NCBI RefSeq assembly: GCF_019203985.1
Contig: NZ_JAGSPD010000007.1
Coordinates: forward strand, 1-64,000
Source: Winogradskyella luteola
GTDB lineage: Bacteria; Bacteroidota; Bacteroidia; Flavobacteriales; Flavobacteriaceae
DNA: 64,000 bases
Direction of reading: 5' to 3'
Made by a program: the position numbers and the translations under genes. The notes beneath the pieces were generated by a model, which saw nothing but the letters and a program-made list of their open reading frames with translations, was not told the DNA's origin and searched no databases. Shown here piece after piece: positions 41,541-52,929 of this stretch (positions are counted from its first letter, which is position 1; each line of letters begins with the position of its first letter).

Positions 41541-42623
41541 TTAATGATTAATAATTTCTTCTTGATGGTTAATCGATTCTTGGTGTATCGCCTTAAACAT
41601 CCTAAGTATAAACTCTTCACTTAAGTTCTTCTCCTCACCCTCTAAAATCATTTTGCCCAAGATTTCATTCCAACGTTTATTCTGAAGCACCGCAACATTA
41701 TGCTTCTTTTTCAACATTCCTATATCATCTGCCACTTGCATACGTTTCCCTAAAATTTCAATCAATCGGTGATCTATAACATCAATCTTTGTCCTTAGGG
41801 TATTTATCTTGTTCTTAAATTCTGCAGCTTCGCCGACTTCTTTCCTAATTCTTAAATCTTCAGTATACTTTACTAAAGTCTCTGGCGTAATCTGCTGTGC
41901 GGCATCACTCCATGCGTTGTCTGGATCGTGATGTGTCTCTATCATCAATCCATCATAATTTAAGTCTAATGCAGTCTGGCTTAAATCGAAAATGATATCC
42001 CTTCGTCCTGCAATATGCGAAGGATCTAATATTAACGGTAAATCTGGAAAACGATTCTGTAGATCTACAGCAATTTGCCATTCGGGATTGTTTCTGTACC
42101 GCGTTTTCTCGTAGGTCGAAAAACCTCTATGAATCACTCCAAGATTGTTAATGTTGTTGGTATAAAAGCGTTCGACCGCGCCTAGCCATAATGACAAATC
42201 TGGATTCACTGGATTTTTAATCAAAATGGGTTTATCTGTCCCTTTTAATGCATCTGCAATATCTTGAACTATAAAAGGACTTACAGTAGTTCTTGCTCCT
42301 ATCCAAAGTATATCAACATCATGCTTTAAAGCCAATTCTACATGGTTGGCATTGGCAACCTCCGTGGTAATCCTCATACCAGTTTCTTCTTTGGCTCTTT
42401 GCAGCCATTTTAAACCTAAAGCTCCTACTCCTTCAAAATTACCTGGCCTTGTTCTTGGTTTCCAAATACCAGCTCTAAAAACCGTGGCATCACTATCTTT
42501 CAATTGATGTGCAATTTTTAAGACCTGATCTTCTGTTTCGGCACTACATGGGCCAGCAATGACAAGAGGGTGATTGAGGTTAAAGGCATCTAACCAATTT
42601 CGTAATTCTTTTTTATTTTCCAT
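41541..42623 (-). CDS. aroA: bifunctional 3-deoxy-7-phosphoheptulonate synthase / chorismate mutase
   Basis: Residues ~1-260 are a DAHP synthase (type I, KDPS-like): HPLVIAGPCSAETEDQV near 18-34, FRAGIWKPRTRPGNFEG near 50-66, and DPSHIAGRRD near 202. Residues ~268-355 are an AroQ-type chorismate mutase (LRTKIDVIDHRLIEILGKRM). The enzyme thus commits carbon to the shikimate pathway and also converts chorismate to prephenate. It is last in the pheA-aminotransferase-tyrA-aroA operon, 6 nt after tyrA. The name aroA follows Bacillus/Bacteroidota usage for DAHP synthase, not EPSP synthase. Confidence 0.93.
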   Translation of the reverse strand: MENKKELRNWLDAFNLNHPLVIAGPCSAETEDQVLKIAHQLKDSDATVFRAGIWKPRTRPGNFEGVGALGLKWLQRAKEETGMRITTEVANANHVELALKHDVDILWIGARTTVSPFIVQDIADALKGTDKPILIKNPVNPDLSLWLGAVERFYTNNINNLGVIHRGFSTYEKTRYRNNPEWQIAVDLQNRFPDLPLILDPSHIAGRRDIIFDLSQTALDLNYDGLMIETHHDPDNAWSDAAQQITPETLVKYTEDLRIRKEVGEAAEFKNKINTLRTKIDVIDHRLIEILGKRMQVADDIGMLKKKHNVAVLQNKRWNEILGKMILEGEEKNLSEEFILRMFKAIHQESINHQEEIINH

Positions 42624-42629
42624 TTGCTA

Positions 42630-43502
42630 TTAATCTGTTTGGGGTTGGATTGAATTAATTCCGTTTAATATATCTTTTATATGGTTTGTTGTTTCCATTT
42701 CATTGTAGACCGCTTCAAAATCTTCGGCCTCCATAAGCTTTTTAAAGTGTTTTAGGTTATTGATGTACTCATCTAAAGTTTCAATAACATTGGTCTTGTT
42801 TTGCTTGAAGATTGGTGTCCACATTGCTGGCGAACTTTTAGCTAAACGCACAGTACTTTCAAAACCACTACCAGCCATATCAAAAATATCGCGCTCGTTT
42901 TTTTCTTTTTCAATTACGGTTTTACCTAGCATAAACGAACTTATGTGCGATAAATGTGATACATAAGCAATATGTTTATCGTGTGCCTTTGGGTTCATGT
43001 ACCGTATGCGCATTCCTAATTCTGAAAATAACTTTAGAGCTTTTTCCTGAAGCTTAAAAGCCGTCTCTTCTACCTCACATATAATATTGGTCTTGCCTTT
43101 GTATAAGCCATGAACTGCAGCACAAGGCCCAGAATGTTCCGTACCGGCAATAGGATGTGCTGCAAGGAAATTTCTACGTTTGGGATGATTCTTAACCTTT
43201 AAACAAATATCCTCTTTGGTTGAACCCACATCAAATACAATGGTCTCGTCCGATACGCAGTCTAAAACATTTGGTAAAACTTTTAAGGTAGCATCAACAG
43301 GAATTGCCACAATGACCAAATCAGCTTTATTTAAATCCTCAAAGCTTACCTTTTTATCAATGATGCCCAGCTCAATAGCTTTGTTTAAGTAATTGCCATT
43401 TCTGTCTATGCCAAAAATGGTACAATCAGGATTTTGTTTCTTTATGTCCAATGCGAAACTGCCACCAATTAAACCAACTCCTATGATAAATATGTTCTTC
43501 AT
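42630..43502 (-). CDS. tyrA: prephenate dehydrogenase
   Basis: TyrA oxidises prephenate to 4-hydroxyphenylpyruvate for tyrosine synthesis. The NAD-binding motif IIGVGLIGGSFALDI is at residues ~5-19. DVGSTKEDI near 92 and AAHPIAGTEHSGP near 114 are the family's conserved active-site segments. The C-terminal helical domain contains YVSHLSHISSFML. The length of 290 residues is normal. It lies 10 nt after the aminotransferase gene and 6 nt before aroA. Confidence 0.94.
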   Translation of the reverse strand: MKNIFIIGVGLIGGSFALDIKKQNPDCTIFGIDRNGNYLNKAIELGIIDKKVSFEDLNKADLVIVAIPVDATLKVLPNVLDCVSDETIVFDVGSTKEDICLKVKNHPKRRNFLAAHPIAGTEHSGPCAAVHGLYKGKTNIICEVEETAFKLQEKALKLFSELGMRIRYMNPKAHDKHIAYVSHLSHISSFMLGKTVIEKEKNERDIFDMAGSGFESTVRLAKSSPAMWTPIFKQNKTNVIETLDEYINNLKHFKKLMEAEDFEAVYNEMETTNHIKDILNGINSIQPQTD

Positions 43503-43512
43503 GTACTTCTAT

Positions 43513-44655
43513 TTATAATCTAGCTATTGCCTCTTTTATTGTTACTTCTGGCGCGCATAACGAAAAACGTACATAGCCTTCTCCATTACTTCCAAAAACT
43601 GTTCCTGGTGCTATAAAAATGGAATATTTTTTTAGTATTAAATCTGTGAACTCTTCAGATTTCACTTTAGGCGGTAACTTTGCCCAAACAAACATCCCTG
43701 TTGCATACTTATCGTGAGTACAATTTAACTTACTAACTAATTCCCATATTAGCTCACGTCTTTGTTCGTAAACACTATTTAAACTTACAAACCACATATC
43801 CGAACATTTTAATGCTTCAATAGCACCTTTTTGAATACCATAAAACATACCAGAATCCATATTGCTCTTTACTTTTAGTACTGCACTTAAATACTCATAA
43901 TTACCCACCAACATACCAACTCTCCAACCCGACATGTTAAATGTTTTACTCAATGAATTTAACTCTAAACAAACTTGCTTGGCATTGTTATATCTCATAA
44001 TGCTAATAGGTCTATCGTTGAGCACAAAACTATAGGGGTTATCATTTACAATAAGTATGTTATGGCGTTTACCAAAGGCTATGACCTCATCATAAAACTT
44101 GTTAGGTGCATTTGCTCCTGTGGGCATGTGTGGGTAATTGATCCACATTATCTTTACCTTACTTAAATTCATGCGCTCTAAAGCAATAAAATCTGGTAAC
44201 CAATTGTTATCTTCCTTTAAATCATAAAAAATCGGCTTAGCCCCTAAAAGCTTGGTTACCGAGGTATAGGTTGGGTAACCAGGATTTGGCACCAACACTT
44301 TATCTCCTTTATTTAAAAATGCCATAGAGATATGCATAATACCTTCTTTGCTACCTAATAATGGTAATATTTCTGTTTTACCACTTAGATTAACCTTATA
44401 GCGTTTCTTGTAAAAATTTGCGATTTCTTCTCTTAACTCGGGCAATCCTTGATAGCTTTGGTATTTATTTGCTCCATCATCTTCCAAGCCTTCTTTTAAT
44501 TGTAAGACTGCGTTAGATGGCGGCAATAAATCAGGACTTCCAATACCGAGGTTGATAATTGGTTTCCCTTGTGATTTTAGAAATGCTACTTCTCGCAATT
44601 TTTTAGAAAAGTAGTATTCTTCTACGTGTTTTAAACGGTTGGCAACTTCGATCAT
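43513..44655 (-). CDS. class I/II PLP-dependent aminotransferase
   Basis: A fold-type I aminotransferase of 380 residues. GIGSPDLLPPS is near 37, NPGYPTYTSV near 123, and the PLP lysine is in NSLSKTFNMSGWRVGML near 230-246. The C-terminal Arg of the carboxylate clamp is likely in VRFSLCAPE. Its place between pheA and tyrA strongly suggests it aminates phenylpyruvate and 4-hydroxyphenylpyruvate, or prephenate. By sequence it resembles aspartate or LL-diaminopimelate aminotransferases. Overlaps the pheA stop by 4 nt. Confidence 0.92.
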   Translation of the reverse strand: MIEVANRLKHVEEYYFSKKLREVAFLKSQGKPIINLGIGSPDLLPPSNAVLQLKEGLEDDGANKYQSYQGLPELREEIANFYKKRYKVNLSGKTEILPLLGSKEGIMHISMAFLNKGDKVLVPNPGYPTYTSVTKLLGAKPIFYDLKEDNNWLPDFIALERMNLSKVKIMWINYPHMPTGANAPNKFYDEVIAFGKRHNILIVNDNPYSFVLNDRPISIMRYNNAKQVCLELNSLSKTFNMSGWRVGMLVGNYEYLSAVLKVKSNMDSGMFYGIQKGAIEALKCSDMWFVSLNSVYEQRRELIWELVSKLNCTHDKYATGMFVWAKLPPKVKSEEFTDLILKKYSIFIAPGTVFGSNGEGYVRFSLCAPEVTIKEAIARL

Positions 44656-45479
44656 AATCTTGCGTTTTTATATTCGCCCAACACTTTAAAATTTTCTGCC
44701 ATTAATTGCATTATTGCGTTTGCTTTTTTATAATCTTCGTAGTCTTCAAAAGTGATGTCTACAAAAAAAGCATACTTCCAAGGTGTATCAATTTTTGGCA
44801 AGGATTGAATTTTGGTTAGGTTGAGTTTACAATCACTCATTACATTGAGTATCGTAGCTAAGCTACCACGTTTGTGATCTAATTCAAACTTTAGAGAAGC
44901 TTTATTGATGGCTTTTCGTTCAACCTTACTATTTTCTCGCTTAACAATGGCAAAGCGGGTTTCATTATGCTTAATGGTTTGAATACTTTCTGCTAGAACC
45001 TCCAAATTATACATCTTAGCAGCATTTTTACTGGCAATAGCTGCAATTCCACTTAAATTTTGTTCTACTATTTGTTTGGCAACATCAGCGGTATCCTTGG
45101 CTTCCACTAATCTTATATGCGGATAGTTCTTCAAAAATACCTTGCATTGTAACAAAGCCATAGGGTGAGAATGTACCTCTAATATTGACGCTATAGTTTG
45201 CCCTTTTAAAGCCATTAGATTATGCTGAATATCTAGATAGTATTCACCGACTATAGACAAGTTATGGTTGTCAATAAGTGCATAATTAGGAATAATAGAA
45301 CCCGCAATAGAATTTTCTAATGCCATAACAATATTATCCGTATCGCCTTCCATAAGACGATCTACCGCACTATCAAACGACATGCACTCCACTACTTCTG
45401 TTTTTGTGCCGAAGTATTGTTGAGCAACCTCATGATGAAATGAGCCTTTTATACCTTGTATTGCTATTGGTTTTTTCAA
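44652..45479 (-). CDS. pheA: prephenate dehydratase (TTG start)
   Basis: PheA makes phenylpyruvate from prephenate. The catalytic domain begins IAIQGIKGSFHHEVAQQYFG, with MALENSIAGSI near 52-62 and the catalytic Thr in NETRFAIV near 167-174. A C-terminal ACT domain (LKFELDHKRGSLATILNVM, ~193-211) probably gives Phe feedback inhibition. No chorismate mutase is fused; that activity sits on AroA. The start is TTG (45479-45477); an upstream ATG gives only a three-codon frame. A terminator hairpin and an aromatic-rich leader peptide lie directly upstream, so transcription is likely attenuated. Confidence 0.94.
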   Translation of the reverse strand: MKKPIAIQGIKGSFHHEVAQQYFGTKTEVVECMSFDSAVDRLMEGDTDNIVMALENSIAGSIIPNYALIDNHNLSIVGEYYLDIQHNLMALKGQTIASILEVHSHPMALLQCKVFLKNYPHIRLVEAKDTADVAKQIVEQNLSGIAAIASKNAAKMYNLEVLAESIQTIKHNETRFAIVKRENSKVERKAINKASLKFELDHKRGSLATILNVMSDCKLNLTKIQSLPKIDTPWKYAFFVDITFEDYEDYKKANAIMQLMAENFKVLGEYKNARL

Positions 45480-45493
45480 ATTAGAATTTCATT

Positions 45494-45526
45494 CAAAGAA
45501 AAAGTCCCGATTAAATCGAGACTTTT
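45494..45526 (-). terminator. attenuator terminator upstream of pheA
   Basis: On the minus strand AAAAGTCTCGA and TCGGGACTTTT form an 11-bp stem (one G-U) with a 5-nt loop, followed by TCTTTG. It lies after the leader peptide and 15 nt before the pheA start, where an attenuator would be. Confidence 0.7.
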
Positions 45527-45552
45527 AAAAACTATATTTTAAATAAAACATA

Positions 45553-45618
45553 CTAAGCCCCGTTCCTTTTGTTATAAAAGAAATAAAACCAGTTGTAATA
45601 TGTTTTAGATGTGTTCAT
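45553..45618 (-). CDS. aromatic-rich leader peptide of the pheA-aroA operon
   Basis: A 21-codon frame (ATG 45618-45616, TAG 45555-45553) contains the block YYNWFYFFY at codons 7-15: four Tyr, three Phe and one Trp in nine residues. Such a run is very unlikely by chance upstream of Phe/Tyr synthesis genes. RNA spanning codons 4-7 (45607-45599, TAAAACATA) is perfectly complementary to the nine bases right after the stop codon (45552-45544, TATGTTTTA). A ribosome stalled on the aromatic codons would break this pairing and free the second strand to disturb the terminator at 45494-45526. This matches classic amino-acid attenuation. Expression is unproven. Confidence 0.75.
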   Translation of the reverse strand: MNTSKTYYNWFYFFYNKRNGA

Positions 45619-45631
45619 GTTTATTATGTGG

Positions 45632-45639
45632 CTAAAGTA
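45632..45639 (-). promoter_or_regulatory. predicted promoter of the pheA leader
   Basis: The minus strand reads TACTTTAG, one mismatch from TAnnTTTG. A TTTTG sits about 18-19 nt upstream in the -33 position. The predicted start near 45626 would leave only about 8 nt before the leader-peptide ATG. Tentative. Confidence 0.4.
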
Positions 45640-45728: not shown

Positions 45729-46622
45729 ATGTCTATCGAAGTTAAAAACATTACAAAACGCTATAAAGACCAAAAGGCACTAAACAATGTATCCTTTAAA
45801 GTCAATGATGCTGAAATCGTTGGATTTCTTGGTCCGAATGGCGCAGGTAAGTCAACCATGATGAAGATTTTAACGACTTACATTAATGCTTCTGAAGGTG
45901 CTGCTAGCGTCAATGGTTTTGATGTGGTTTCAGATAAAAAGAATGTGCAACGTAGCGTAGGCTATTTACCTGAGCACAATCCGCTTTATACCGACTTATA
46001 CGTAAAAGAGTATTTAAACTTTAATGCCAATGTTTACGGCACATCTAAATCTAGAATTGACAAAGTTATTGAACTCACAGGCCTTTCTCCTGAAGCTCAT
46101 AAAAAAATAGCACAGCTATCTAAAGGTTACCGGCAACGTGTGGGTTTAGCAAATGCGTTATTACACAATCCTGATGTATTGATTTTAGATGAACCTACAA
46201 CTGGTTTGGATCCCAATCAATTAGTAGAAATTAGAAATTTGATTAGAACCATTGGCAAAGAGAAAACCGTATTTCTCTCAACCCATATTATGCAAGAAGT
46301 TGAAGCGATGTGCGACCGTGTGATTATTATCAATAAAGGTGAAGTTGTAGCCGATAAATATTTGAAAGATTTAAGAGATGGGCAAGAGCAAATCGTAGTC
46401 GTGGAATTTGATTATCGAGTAGAAGATGCTTTTTTAAATAAACTCCCTAAAGTAACAGATGTAAAAAACCCTATAGGTTTTGTTTATGAAATTACGTTTT
46501 CTACAAAAGACGATATGCGATCTCATGTTTTTGACTTTGCACATGATAATGAATTGAAAATTCTTCAGTTGAACCAGAAAAATGCAAGTTTAGAAAGTTT
46601 GTTTAGGGAATTGACGAGTTGA
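45729..46622 (+). CDS. gldA: ABC transporter ATP-binding protein GldA (gliding motility-associated)
   Basis: The ATPase of a three-part exporter linked to gliding in Flavobacteriia. Walker A GPNGAGKSTMMKIL at ~36-49, Q-loop near 83, signature LSKGYRQRVGLANAL near 134, Walker B VLILDEPTTGLD near 155 and switch His in STHIM near 187. The ~80-residue C-terminal extension after the ATPase core is typical of GldA and related natA-type proteins. The length of 297 residues is normal for GldA. No gldF/gldG genes adjoin, which is also usual. Confidence 0.88.
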   Translation: MSIEVKNITKRYKDQKALNNVSFKVNDAEIVGFLGPNGAGKSTMMKILTTYINASEGAASVNGFDVVSDKKNVQRSVGYLPEHNPLYTDLYVKEYLNFNANVYGTSKSRIDKVIELTGLSPEAHKKIAQLSKGYRQRVGLANALLHNPDVLILDEPTTGLDPNQLVEIRNLIRTIGKEKTVFLSTHIMQEVEAMCDRVIIINKGEVVADKYLKDLRDGQEQIVVVEFDYRVEDAFLNKLPKVTDVKNPIGFVYEITFSTKDDMRSHVFDFAHDNELKILQLNQKNASLESLFRELTS

Positions 46623-52249: not shown

Positions 52250-52369
52250 TTTTCTAGTTTTTTGAGTTAAAATAAATTAAACCAAAAGCCAAATGCGCCT
52301 TAAAAAAGCGTACTTAATAGAAAAATGTTATAAAGAAATTGCTAATCACAGATGAGTAATTAGTCTCGA

Positions 52370-52490
52370 GTTATCTATCCGAATTTACAAAAAATGACTT
52401 GCACATTCAAGTAGAATTTAGCACCTTCTTAGTGAATCTAAGGGTTGCTAAGGCTTCAACGGGTCTATTCCCTCCACCTTTCTTGATAAC
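52370..52490 (-). promoter_or_regulatory. SAM-I (S-box) riboswitch upstream of metY
   Basis: The minus strand shows SAM-I core elements in order: GTTATCAAGAAAGGTGGAGG, GGGAATAGACCCGTTGAAGC, CTTAGCAACCC, a P3 hairpin CTTAG/CTAAG, and AAGGTGCTAAATTC. P1 is GTTATC (52490-52485) with GATAAC (52375-52370). It lies in the leader of metY-metX-hom, so SAM should switch methionine synthesis off. The following 120 nt before metY shows no clear terminator, so the switching mode is unknown. Confidence 0.93.
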
Positions 52491-52520
52491 ATTTCAGTAA
52501 GTGTTTGAACTTTGTGAGTA

Positions 52521-52722: not shown

Positions 52723-52758
52723 CCAAGGCTATTTAAATTTTAAACAGTCTTAAAATTA

Positions 52759-52851
52759 AGAGGAAAAATTTGCCTGATTGCAACCTCTCTGTTTTTTTTA
52801 TTTTAGAAACAGATACCTAAATAACTTTTAGGGATAAAAATGCTAAAACAG
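52759..52851 (+). promoter_or_regulatory. candidate SAM-II riboswitch upstream of metK
   Basis: The stretch has the SAM-II core in order: P1 AGAGG (52759-52763), a U/A-rich loop ending ATTGCAA (52777-52783), P1' CCTCT (52784-52788), then GATAAAAATGCTAAAACAG (52833-52851). CTG at 52774-52776 can pair with CAG at 52849-52851 as the pseudoknot. Known SAM-II RNAs have a loop ending in AUUGCAA and a 3' part GAUAAA..GCUAAA..GG. Two extra hairpins (CTGTTT/AAACAG and CCTAAA/TTTAGG) are inserted between P1' and the 3' core. The gene downstream, metK, makes SAM, which fits. The distance to the start codon is 78 nt. Confidence 0.6.
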
Positions 52852-52929
52852 AAAGTAACCCACTTTTGTAGCGACAAAGCAATCACCGAAATTCCTTTTT
52901 AGTTTAATAACCTTAACAAAAAGATATTT

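Follow-up and report, generated by a model that had tools for sequence, protein, structure and literature searches.

The region upstream of the pheA operon of Winogradskyella luteola is best explained as a ribosome-mediated transcription attenuator of a phenylalanine/tyrosine operon, a reading to which, judging from sequence and predicted folding, we give a probability of about 0.92. An earlier sequence-only reading of this DNA had proposed such a mechanism, and conservation, covariation, spacing and predicted folds all support it. In the 64,000-nucleotide stretch that was analysed (the window), the minus strand carries pheA, an aminotransferase gene, tyrA and a gene for a DAHP synthase/chorismate mutase, preceded by a short leader frame and a terminator hairpin. 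The first gene, pheA, begins with TTG (44652 to 45479, minus strand) and has prephenate dehydratase as its best NCBIfam match (198.7 bits, cut-off 219); the closest named relatives of its product are from Winogradskyella, with up to 91% identity. It is followed on the same strand by a class I aminotransferase (43513 to 44655), which matches many aminotransferase NCBIfam models, those listed all falling below their cut-offs, by the prephenate dehydrogenase gene tyrA (42630 to 43502; 400.5 bits, cut-off 295), and by a DAHP synthase fused to chorismate mutase, called aroA in the sequence-only reading (41541 to 42623; 198.7 bits, cut-off 279). Among the best NCBIfam matches of the four genes, only that of tyrA exceeds its cut-off. 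A 249-nt intergenic stretch separates pheA from a divergent gene on the plus strand, named from its sequence as an ABC-type ATPase (45729 to 46622), and contains, in order along the minus strand, a predicted promoter, the leader frame and the terminator hairpin with its run of U's.

The leader peptide frame, MNTSKTYYNWFYFFYNKRNGA, extends over 21 codons from ATG to TAG (45618 to 45553, minus strand), which bears out the 21-codon frame that had been proposed upstream of the operon on the same strand. The putative control codons, 7 to 15 (45574 to 45600, minus strand), read YYNWFYFFY, so that eight of the nine are aromatic. Could a T-rich stretch near an ordinary terminator simply have been read by chance as Phe and Tyr codons? 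The region is AT-rich, and six or more aromatic codons in ten are found in 5.3% of shuffles. Eight or more per ten-codon stretch, however, appear in only 7 of 2000 dinucleotide shuffles of the 300 nt upstream of W. luteola pheA, and across the family an aromatic score of at least 7 is reached by 154 of 162 real regions compared with 3 of 810 shuffles, while at least six aromatic codons in ten occur on just 5 of the 162 opposite strands. The stems, moreover, covary, and conservation across the family speaks strongly against coincidence, the probability of which we regard as practically negligible. The leader RNA of W. luteola is also more stably folded than every one of 200 shuffles (z -4.74). 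A coding signature at the third codon position was sought within the genus and was not found, this position varying less than the other two (mean entropy 0.20, compared with 0.26 and 0.38), and the nucleotide record alone is thus no proof that the leader is translated.

The arrangement is nearly universal in the sampled family. Of the 162 Flavobacteriaceae loci, 130 represent the genera, out of 149, in which PheA was matched, and 32 come from additional genomes of the family; 156 of the 162 have, within 300 nt of pheA, at least six aromatic codons in ten followed by a terminator; the conserved Tyr/Phe leader that had been suggested as a check in related Flavobacteriaceae is therefore present. 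Two of the other six loci (L050 and L108) show an aromatic leader and then a hairpin farther up, when 700-900 nt are read, and two (L033 and L129) have only 128 and 373 nt of sequence available upstream of pheA. In the remaining two (L122 and L145) there is no aromatic leader in the 704 and 696 nt upstream of pheA. A set of 80 named loci, which partly duplicates the 162, gives a similar picture: the aromatic frame lies within 300 nt in 75, farther upstream in three more, and two offer only 128-150 nt. The gene order pheA, aminotransferase, tyrA, DAHP synthase is found in 78 of these 80, the other two having no DAHP synthase match in the available DNA. Outside the family, leader and terminator were found in 31 of 44 loci of the same class and 4 of 16 from the rest of the phylum, and an aromatic leader in none of eight same-order genomes (f2, L180-L187), whose PheA proteins are only 29-34% identical; these 68 loci are a non-random sample, PheA matches having been obtained in 340 of 395 genomes and most of the phylum being unread. 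We regard the attenuator as a real device of an ordinary type and, given its spread, probably an old one. In three named Gelidibacter loci (L298, L300, L302) and in L050, which is probably the same as L302, 234-574 nt lie between the leader stop and pheA. TTG or GTG starts of pheA are frequent in Winogradskyella and its relatives (L232-L311), where they possibly serve to keep expression low.

Promoters of Bacteroidota follow the consensus TTG-N17-21-TAnnTTnG. Ahead of the W. luteola leader, a predicted promoter of this type consists of a -33 element TTG (45660 to 45658, minus strand) and a -7 element TACTTTAG (45639 to 45632, minus strand). The complete pattern is present in 113 of 156 family loci compared with 1.5% of shuffles, and TAnnTTnG in 152 of 156 compared with 21%. 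Transcription is accordingly predicted, from sequence, to begin a few bases beyond the -7 element, ahead of the leader ATG.

The intrinsic terminator hairpin, AAAAGTCTCGAT-TTA-ATCGGGACTTTT (45526 to 45500, minus strand), has a predicted folding energy of -13.0 kcal/mol and a short, interrupted U tract that ends at 45495, 15 nt ahead of the TTG of pheA at 45479, as had been described from the sequence alone. A simple terminator scan of the W. luteola region lists no terminator here, in our reading because the U's are engaged in A-U pairing within the stem. The hairpin is supported by covariation in 110 aligned relatives, where 62 double-change cells are counted; shuffles give 3.3, and a slid helix no more than 10.

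Two segments on the minus strand are central to the switch. Segment 2, CGGGGCUU / CGGGGCTT (45562 to 45555), is the predicted 5' side of the antiterminator, on the evidence of folding and covariation, and overlaps the last codons of the leader and its stop; segment 3, AAGUCUCG / AAGTCTCG (45524 to 45517), is the 5' arm of the terminator and is common to both structures. The sequence-only reading had instead paired a downstream A/U-rich segment, TTTAAAA, with TTTTAAA in the region of the terminator arm. That complementarity exists, but as the main antiterminator it was rejected, because the G-C core of that arm would stay unpaired, whereas CGGGGCUU:AAGUCUCG belongs to the minimum-energy fold predicted for nascent RNA in the stalled state and is the likely antiterminator.

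Pairing of these arms is well maintained in the family. The antiterminator duplex has a mean energy of -12.0 kcal/mol, compared with -8.2 when the arms are taken from other genomes and -6.0 in shuffles, and reaches p<=0.05 in 134 of 156 loci. Once the 7 of these 156 loci without an arm of the form searched for are left out, 117 of the remaining 149 make seven or eight of the eight pairs with their own arm, against 28% with arms of another core. The tree requires a minimum of 26 changes in the class of the terminator arm, some of them being C/T exchanges that are tolerated by G, and yet pairing at six of six positions, in any of three registers, is retained in 140 of the 149. When the hexamer is held to a strict single register, 104 of 146 family loci pair fully; the shuffle rate of 8% applies to this single-register test alone and was computed over the 173 loci of a wider set.

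The compensatory changes that the sequence-only reading had called for in the stems are thus present, within limits. The family alignment holds 110 relatives, taken from 154 distinct pieces after near-duplicates and the most divergent sequences were left out, and in it seven of the eight antiterminator pairs show double changes, in 58 cells, the corresponding figures in shuffles being 4.8 and 21.5. Sliding the helix by two columns still gives 51 double-change cells, but only 49.7% of cells are then paired compared with 74.2% in the proper register. We attribute part of the shortfall in the latter figure to clades whose pairing is shifted by one base. The column pair 26:87 of the antiterminator illustrates the constraint: among the 110 relatives there are 67 A-U, 39 G-C and 4 G-U combinations and none that is unpaired. 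Column 87 belongs to both stems, and carries either C, in which case both partners are G, or T, in which case they are A or G; an A opposite C at this column is absent on the antiterminator side. The relatedness of the sequences sets a limit. For the best covarying column, with four changes, a comparison of phylogenetically independent pairs gave three supported pairs (one the same way, none the other, two without difference), which is not significant. The genus alignment is uninformative on antiterminator covariation: it holds no double changes, its 92.4% of paired cells are matched in every shuffle, and in 25 of 46 rows the eighth pair is not made.

How might such a leader work? Predicted folds of W. 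luteola RNA in three states suggest an answer. With a ribosome stalled at Tyr15 and RNA made as far as the terminator 5' arm, CGGGGCUU:AAGUCUCG forms together with an inner A/U stem (-11.6 kcal/mol); with the ribosome at the stop codon, the terminator alone folds (-13.0 kcal/mol); and with no ribosome, a long hairpin between segment 1 and segment 2 (-16.6) is predicted in addition to the terminator. Taking as the criterion at least six arm bases paired upstream, the antiterminator is predicted in the stalled state in 155 of 156 family leaders, against 33% of stalled-state shuffles. With the ribosome at the stop it is predicted in none of the 156 (in two if five arm bases suffice), although less RNA is left free in that state and pairing is lowered by this alone. 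It is also predicted in 103 of 156 free RNAs, implying that the untranslated state would not always terminate. In the complete W. luteola leader, even with the ribosome stalled, the terminator is more stable than the antiterminator (-15.9 against -11.6), and co-transcriptional, kinetic trapping would thus be required.

The spacing of the leader is consistent with this scheme. Counting aromatic codons that lie at least 6 nt ahead of segment 2, the distance from the last of them to segment 2 is 12-15 nt in 128 of 156 family leaders and 14 nt in 60, W. luteola included. The position of the stop codon, by comparison, is loose, lying anywhere between 8 nt ahead of the start of segment 2 and 27 nt beyond it, and in much of the genus the leader stops right behind its last aromatic codons, ahead of segment 2. 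On the sequence evidence, it is the placement of the codons that is kept and not the end of the peptide, which suits a stall sensor.

We infer from these features where transcription starts, that the leader is translated, that ribosomes stall on it, and that it responds to Phe and Tyr. RNA polymerase would start just ahead of the leader with a ribosome following. When charged tRNA-Phe or tRNA-Tyr is scarce, the ribosome would stall within codons 7 to 15. With the last aromatic codon in the A site, the ribosome footprint would bring its edge, at the measured spacing of 14 nt, just ahead of segment 2, which could then pair with the emerging 5' arm of the terminator, block the terminator and allow the operon to be read. 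With an ample supply of both amino acids, the ribosome would advance to the stop codon and cover segment 2, the terminator would form, and transcription would end before pheA.

The leader could alternatively control the translation of pheA, by coupling or reinitiation, and not its transcription. The TTG or GTG start of pheA in many relatives, and the closeness of pheA to the leader in W. luteola, would fit such a role. This contrasts, however, with the presence between leader and pheA of a terminator with a U tract in 156 of 162 loci, with the distances of 234-574 nt in L050, L298, L300 and L302, and with the fact that the switch segments pair with the terminator and not with the pheA start. 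Control of pheA translation is thus very unlikely, compared with attenuation of transcription.

A further element, expected of a classical attenuator, is a possible protector hairpin. Segment 1, TAAAACATA (45607 to 45599, codons 4 to 7, minus strand), is perfectly complementary to TATGTTTTA (45552 to 45544, minus strand), the nine bases directly after the stop. The exact complementarity that had been pointed out here is real, and it is kept within the genus, with 94.2% of cells paired and three double-change cells. Across the family it is only weakly supported, the hairpin reaching p<=0.05 against shuffles in just 35 of 156 loci (median p 0.18), and in the genus consensus fold segment 2 pairs weakly with codons 10 to 12 instead.

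Which amino acids are sensed? Phe and Tyr codons are both present in all 156 family leaders and Trp codons in 100. Phe and Tyr are the likely signals because both are found among the final four codons of the aromatic run in 151 of 156 leaders, Trp being found there in only 6; Trp codons may possibly have a role, but are mostly farther from the switch. It is likely, from sequence, that Phe and Tyr are both sensed, in keeping with an operon that makes both. We consider it rather probable that one leader family extends across the Flavobacteriaceae and a large part of the Bacteroidia and responds to Phe and Tyr together; if true, a shortage of either amino acid would open a single operon that makes both, in a phylum where ribosomes appear to begin translation mostly without Shine-Dalgarno pairing.

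The best-known counterparts are the pheA and trp attenuators of Escherichia coli, with their leaders pheL and trpL. The W. luteola element shares with them a frame of regulatory codons, an arm common to antiterminator and terminator, and a stop codon near segment 2. It differs in its predicted Bacteroidota promoter and in the weak conservation of the protector hairpin. Whereas E. coli pheL reportedly senses Phe alone, leaders of the W. luteola type have conserved codons for both Phe and Tyr, ahead of an operon that makes both. The Rfam Phe_leader model (RF01859) scores 20 bits against W. luteola sequence (gathering score 55, E 0.45), below the threshold for membership. The Bacteroid-trp motif (RF01692), which we take to be a trp leader, gives no match to the W. 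luteola region at E up to 10. This motif appears as a cis-regulatory RNA of Bacteroidetes in Weinberg et al. (2010, PMC2864571). A T-box, a riboswitch or a known Rfam leader was considered and rejected: no Rfam model reaches its gathering score in the region, and the six hits obtained at E up to 10 include neither a T-box nor a known riboswitch, the best being SpF39_sRNA (31.2 bits, cut-off 60, E 0.023).

The device is not without precedent in the phylum. An abstract by Vitreschak et al. from 2004 is said to report attenuators in some Bacteroidetes/Chlorobi. A study of Flavobacterium psychrophilum in ISME Communications (2021), reportedly with Guerin as first author, bears directly on pheA. 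The available text of that study reports strong indications that amino-acid operons are attenuated by leader peptides, and names a conserved structured 5' element of pheA, without Rfam hits, that is reported to occur in other Flavobacteriaceae genera (PMC9723704); the device, of which the sequence-only reading knew no described case for this operon in Flavobacteriia, is therefore not wholly undescribed. That element resembles the one in W. luteola in being structured, upstream of pheA and without Rfam hits, and the two are presumably the same. In the text seen, the F. psychrophilum paper differs from the present analysis in giving no leader sequence, antiterminator, comparative test or Phe/Tyr specificity. 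Short frames in long 5' UTRs of Bacteroides thetaiotaomicron have also been described as reminiscent of leader peptides (PMC7366714). We found no detailed description of a Flavobacteriaceae pheA-operon attenuator in the open-access literature, subscription journals being mostly outside the search; as far as the open-access text can be read, the attenuator has already been named at pheA but apparently not dissected before.

The present analysis thus supplies a testable anatomy for a regulatory element that the literature text seen only names, and offers a putative natural Phe/Tyr sensor. Because attenuation depends on a ribosome that trails RNA polymerase closely, such leaders are also handles on transcription-translation coupling in Bacteroidota, and the alignments could become an Rfam family.

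There is another way in which the same terminator could be governed, namely by a switch that senses a metabolite, a tRNA or a protein, the short frame being incidental. Such a switch would be expected to show the same alternation of terminator and antiterminator, and the codon-position pattern of the frame in the genus is not coding-like. Against this, no Rfam family reaches its gathering score in the region, and what is conserved ahead of the antiterminator is a Phe/Tyr-rich frame whose last aromatic codon lies at a narrowly ranging distance from segment 2. Elsewhere in the W. luteola genome, furthermore, hisG and trpE are preceded not by leaders of the Phe/Tyr type but by His- and Trp-rich ones. 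The hisG leader (L312/L313; contigs C12 and C50, with trpE) reads MNFIQLHHHFHIIAQAR and includes HHHFH, the leader before the best trpE match reads MKTKTNHTWWWNFSNSCS and includes WWW, and inspection by eye shows a terminator-like hairpin after each. A sensing switch is therefore extremely unlikely, in comparison with an attenuator read by the ribosome, the same device apparently serving two more operons with other amino acids. A corresponding leader was sought at ilvD, for which the W. luteola genome has no ILVD_EDD_N match.

Finally, the window contains two further regulatory RNAs. A SAM-I (S box) riboswitch (52368 to 52492, minus strand) precedes a gene that resembles O-acetylhomoserine sulfhydrylase, and a SAM-II (long loop) riboswitch (52754 to 52856, plus strand) precedes metK, both genes being named from their sequence. 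Two different classes of SAM riboswitch thus stand back to back on opposite strands.
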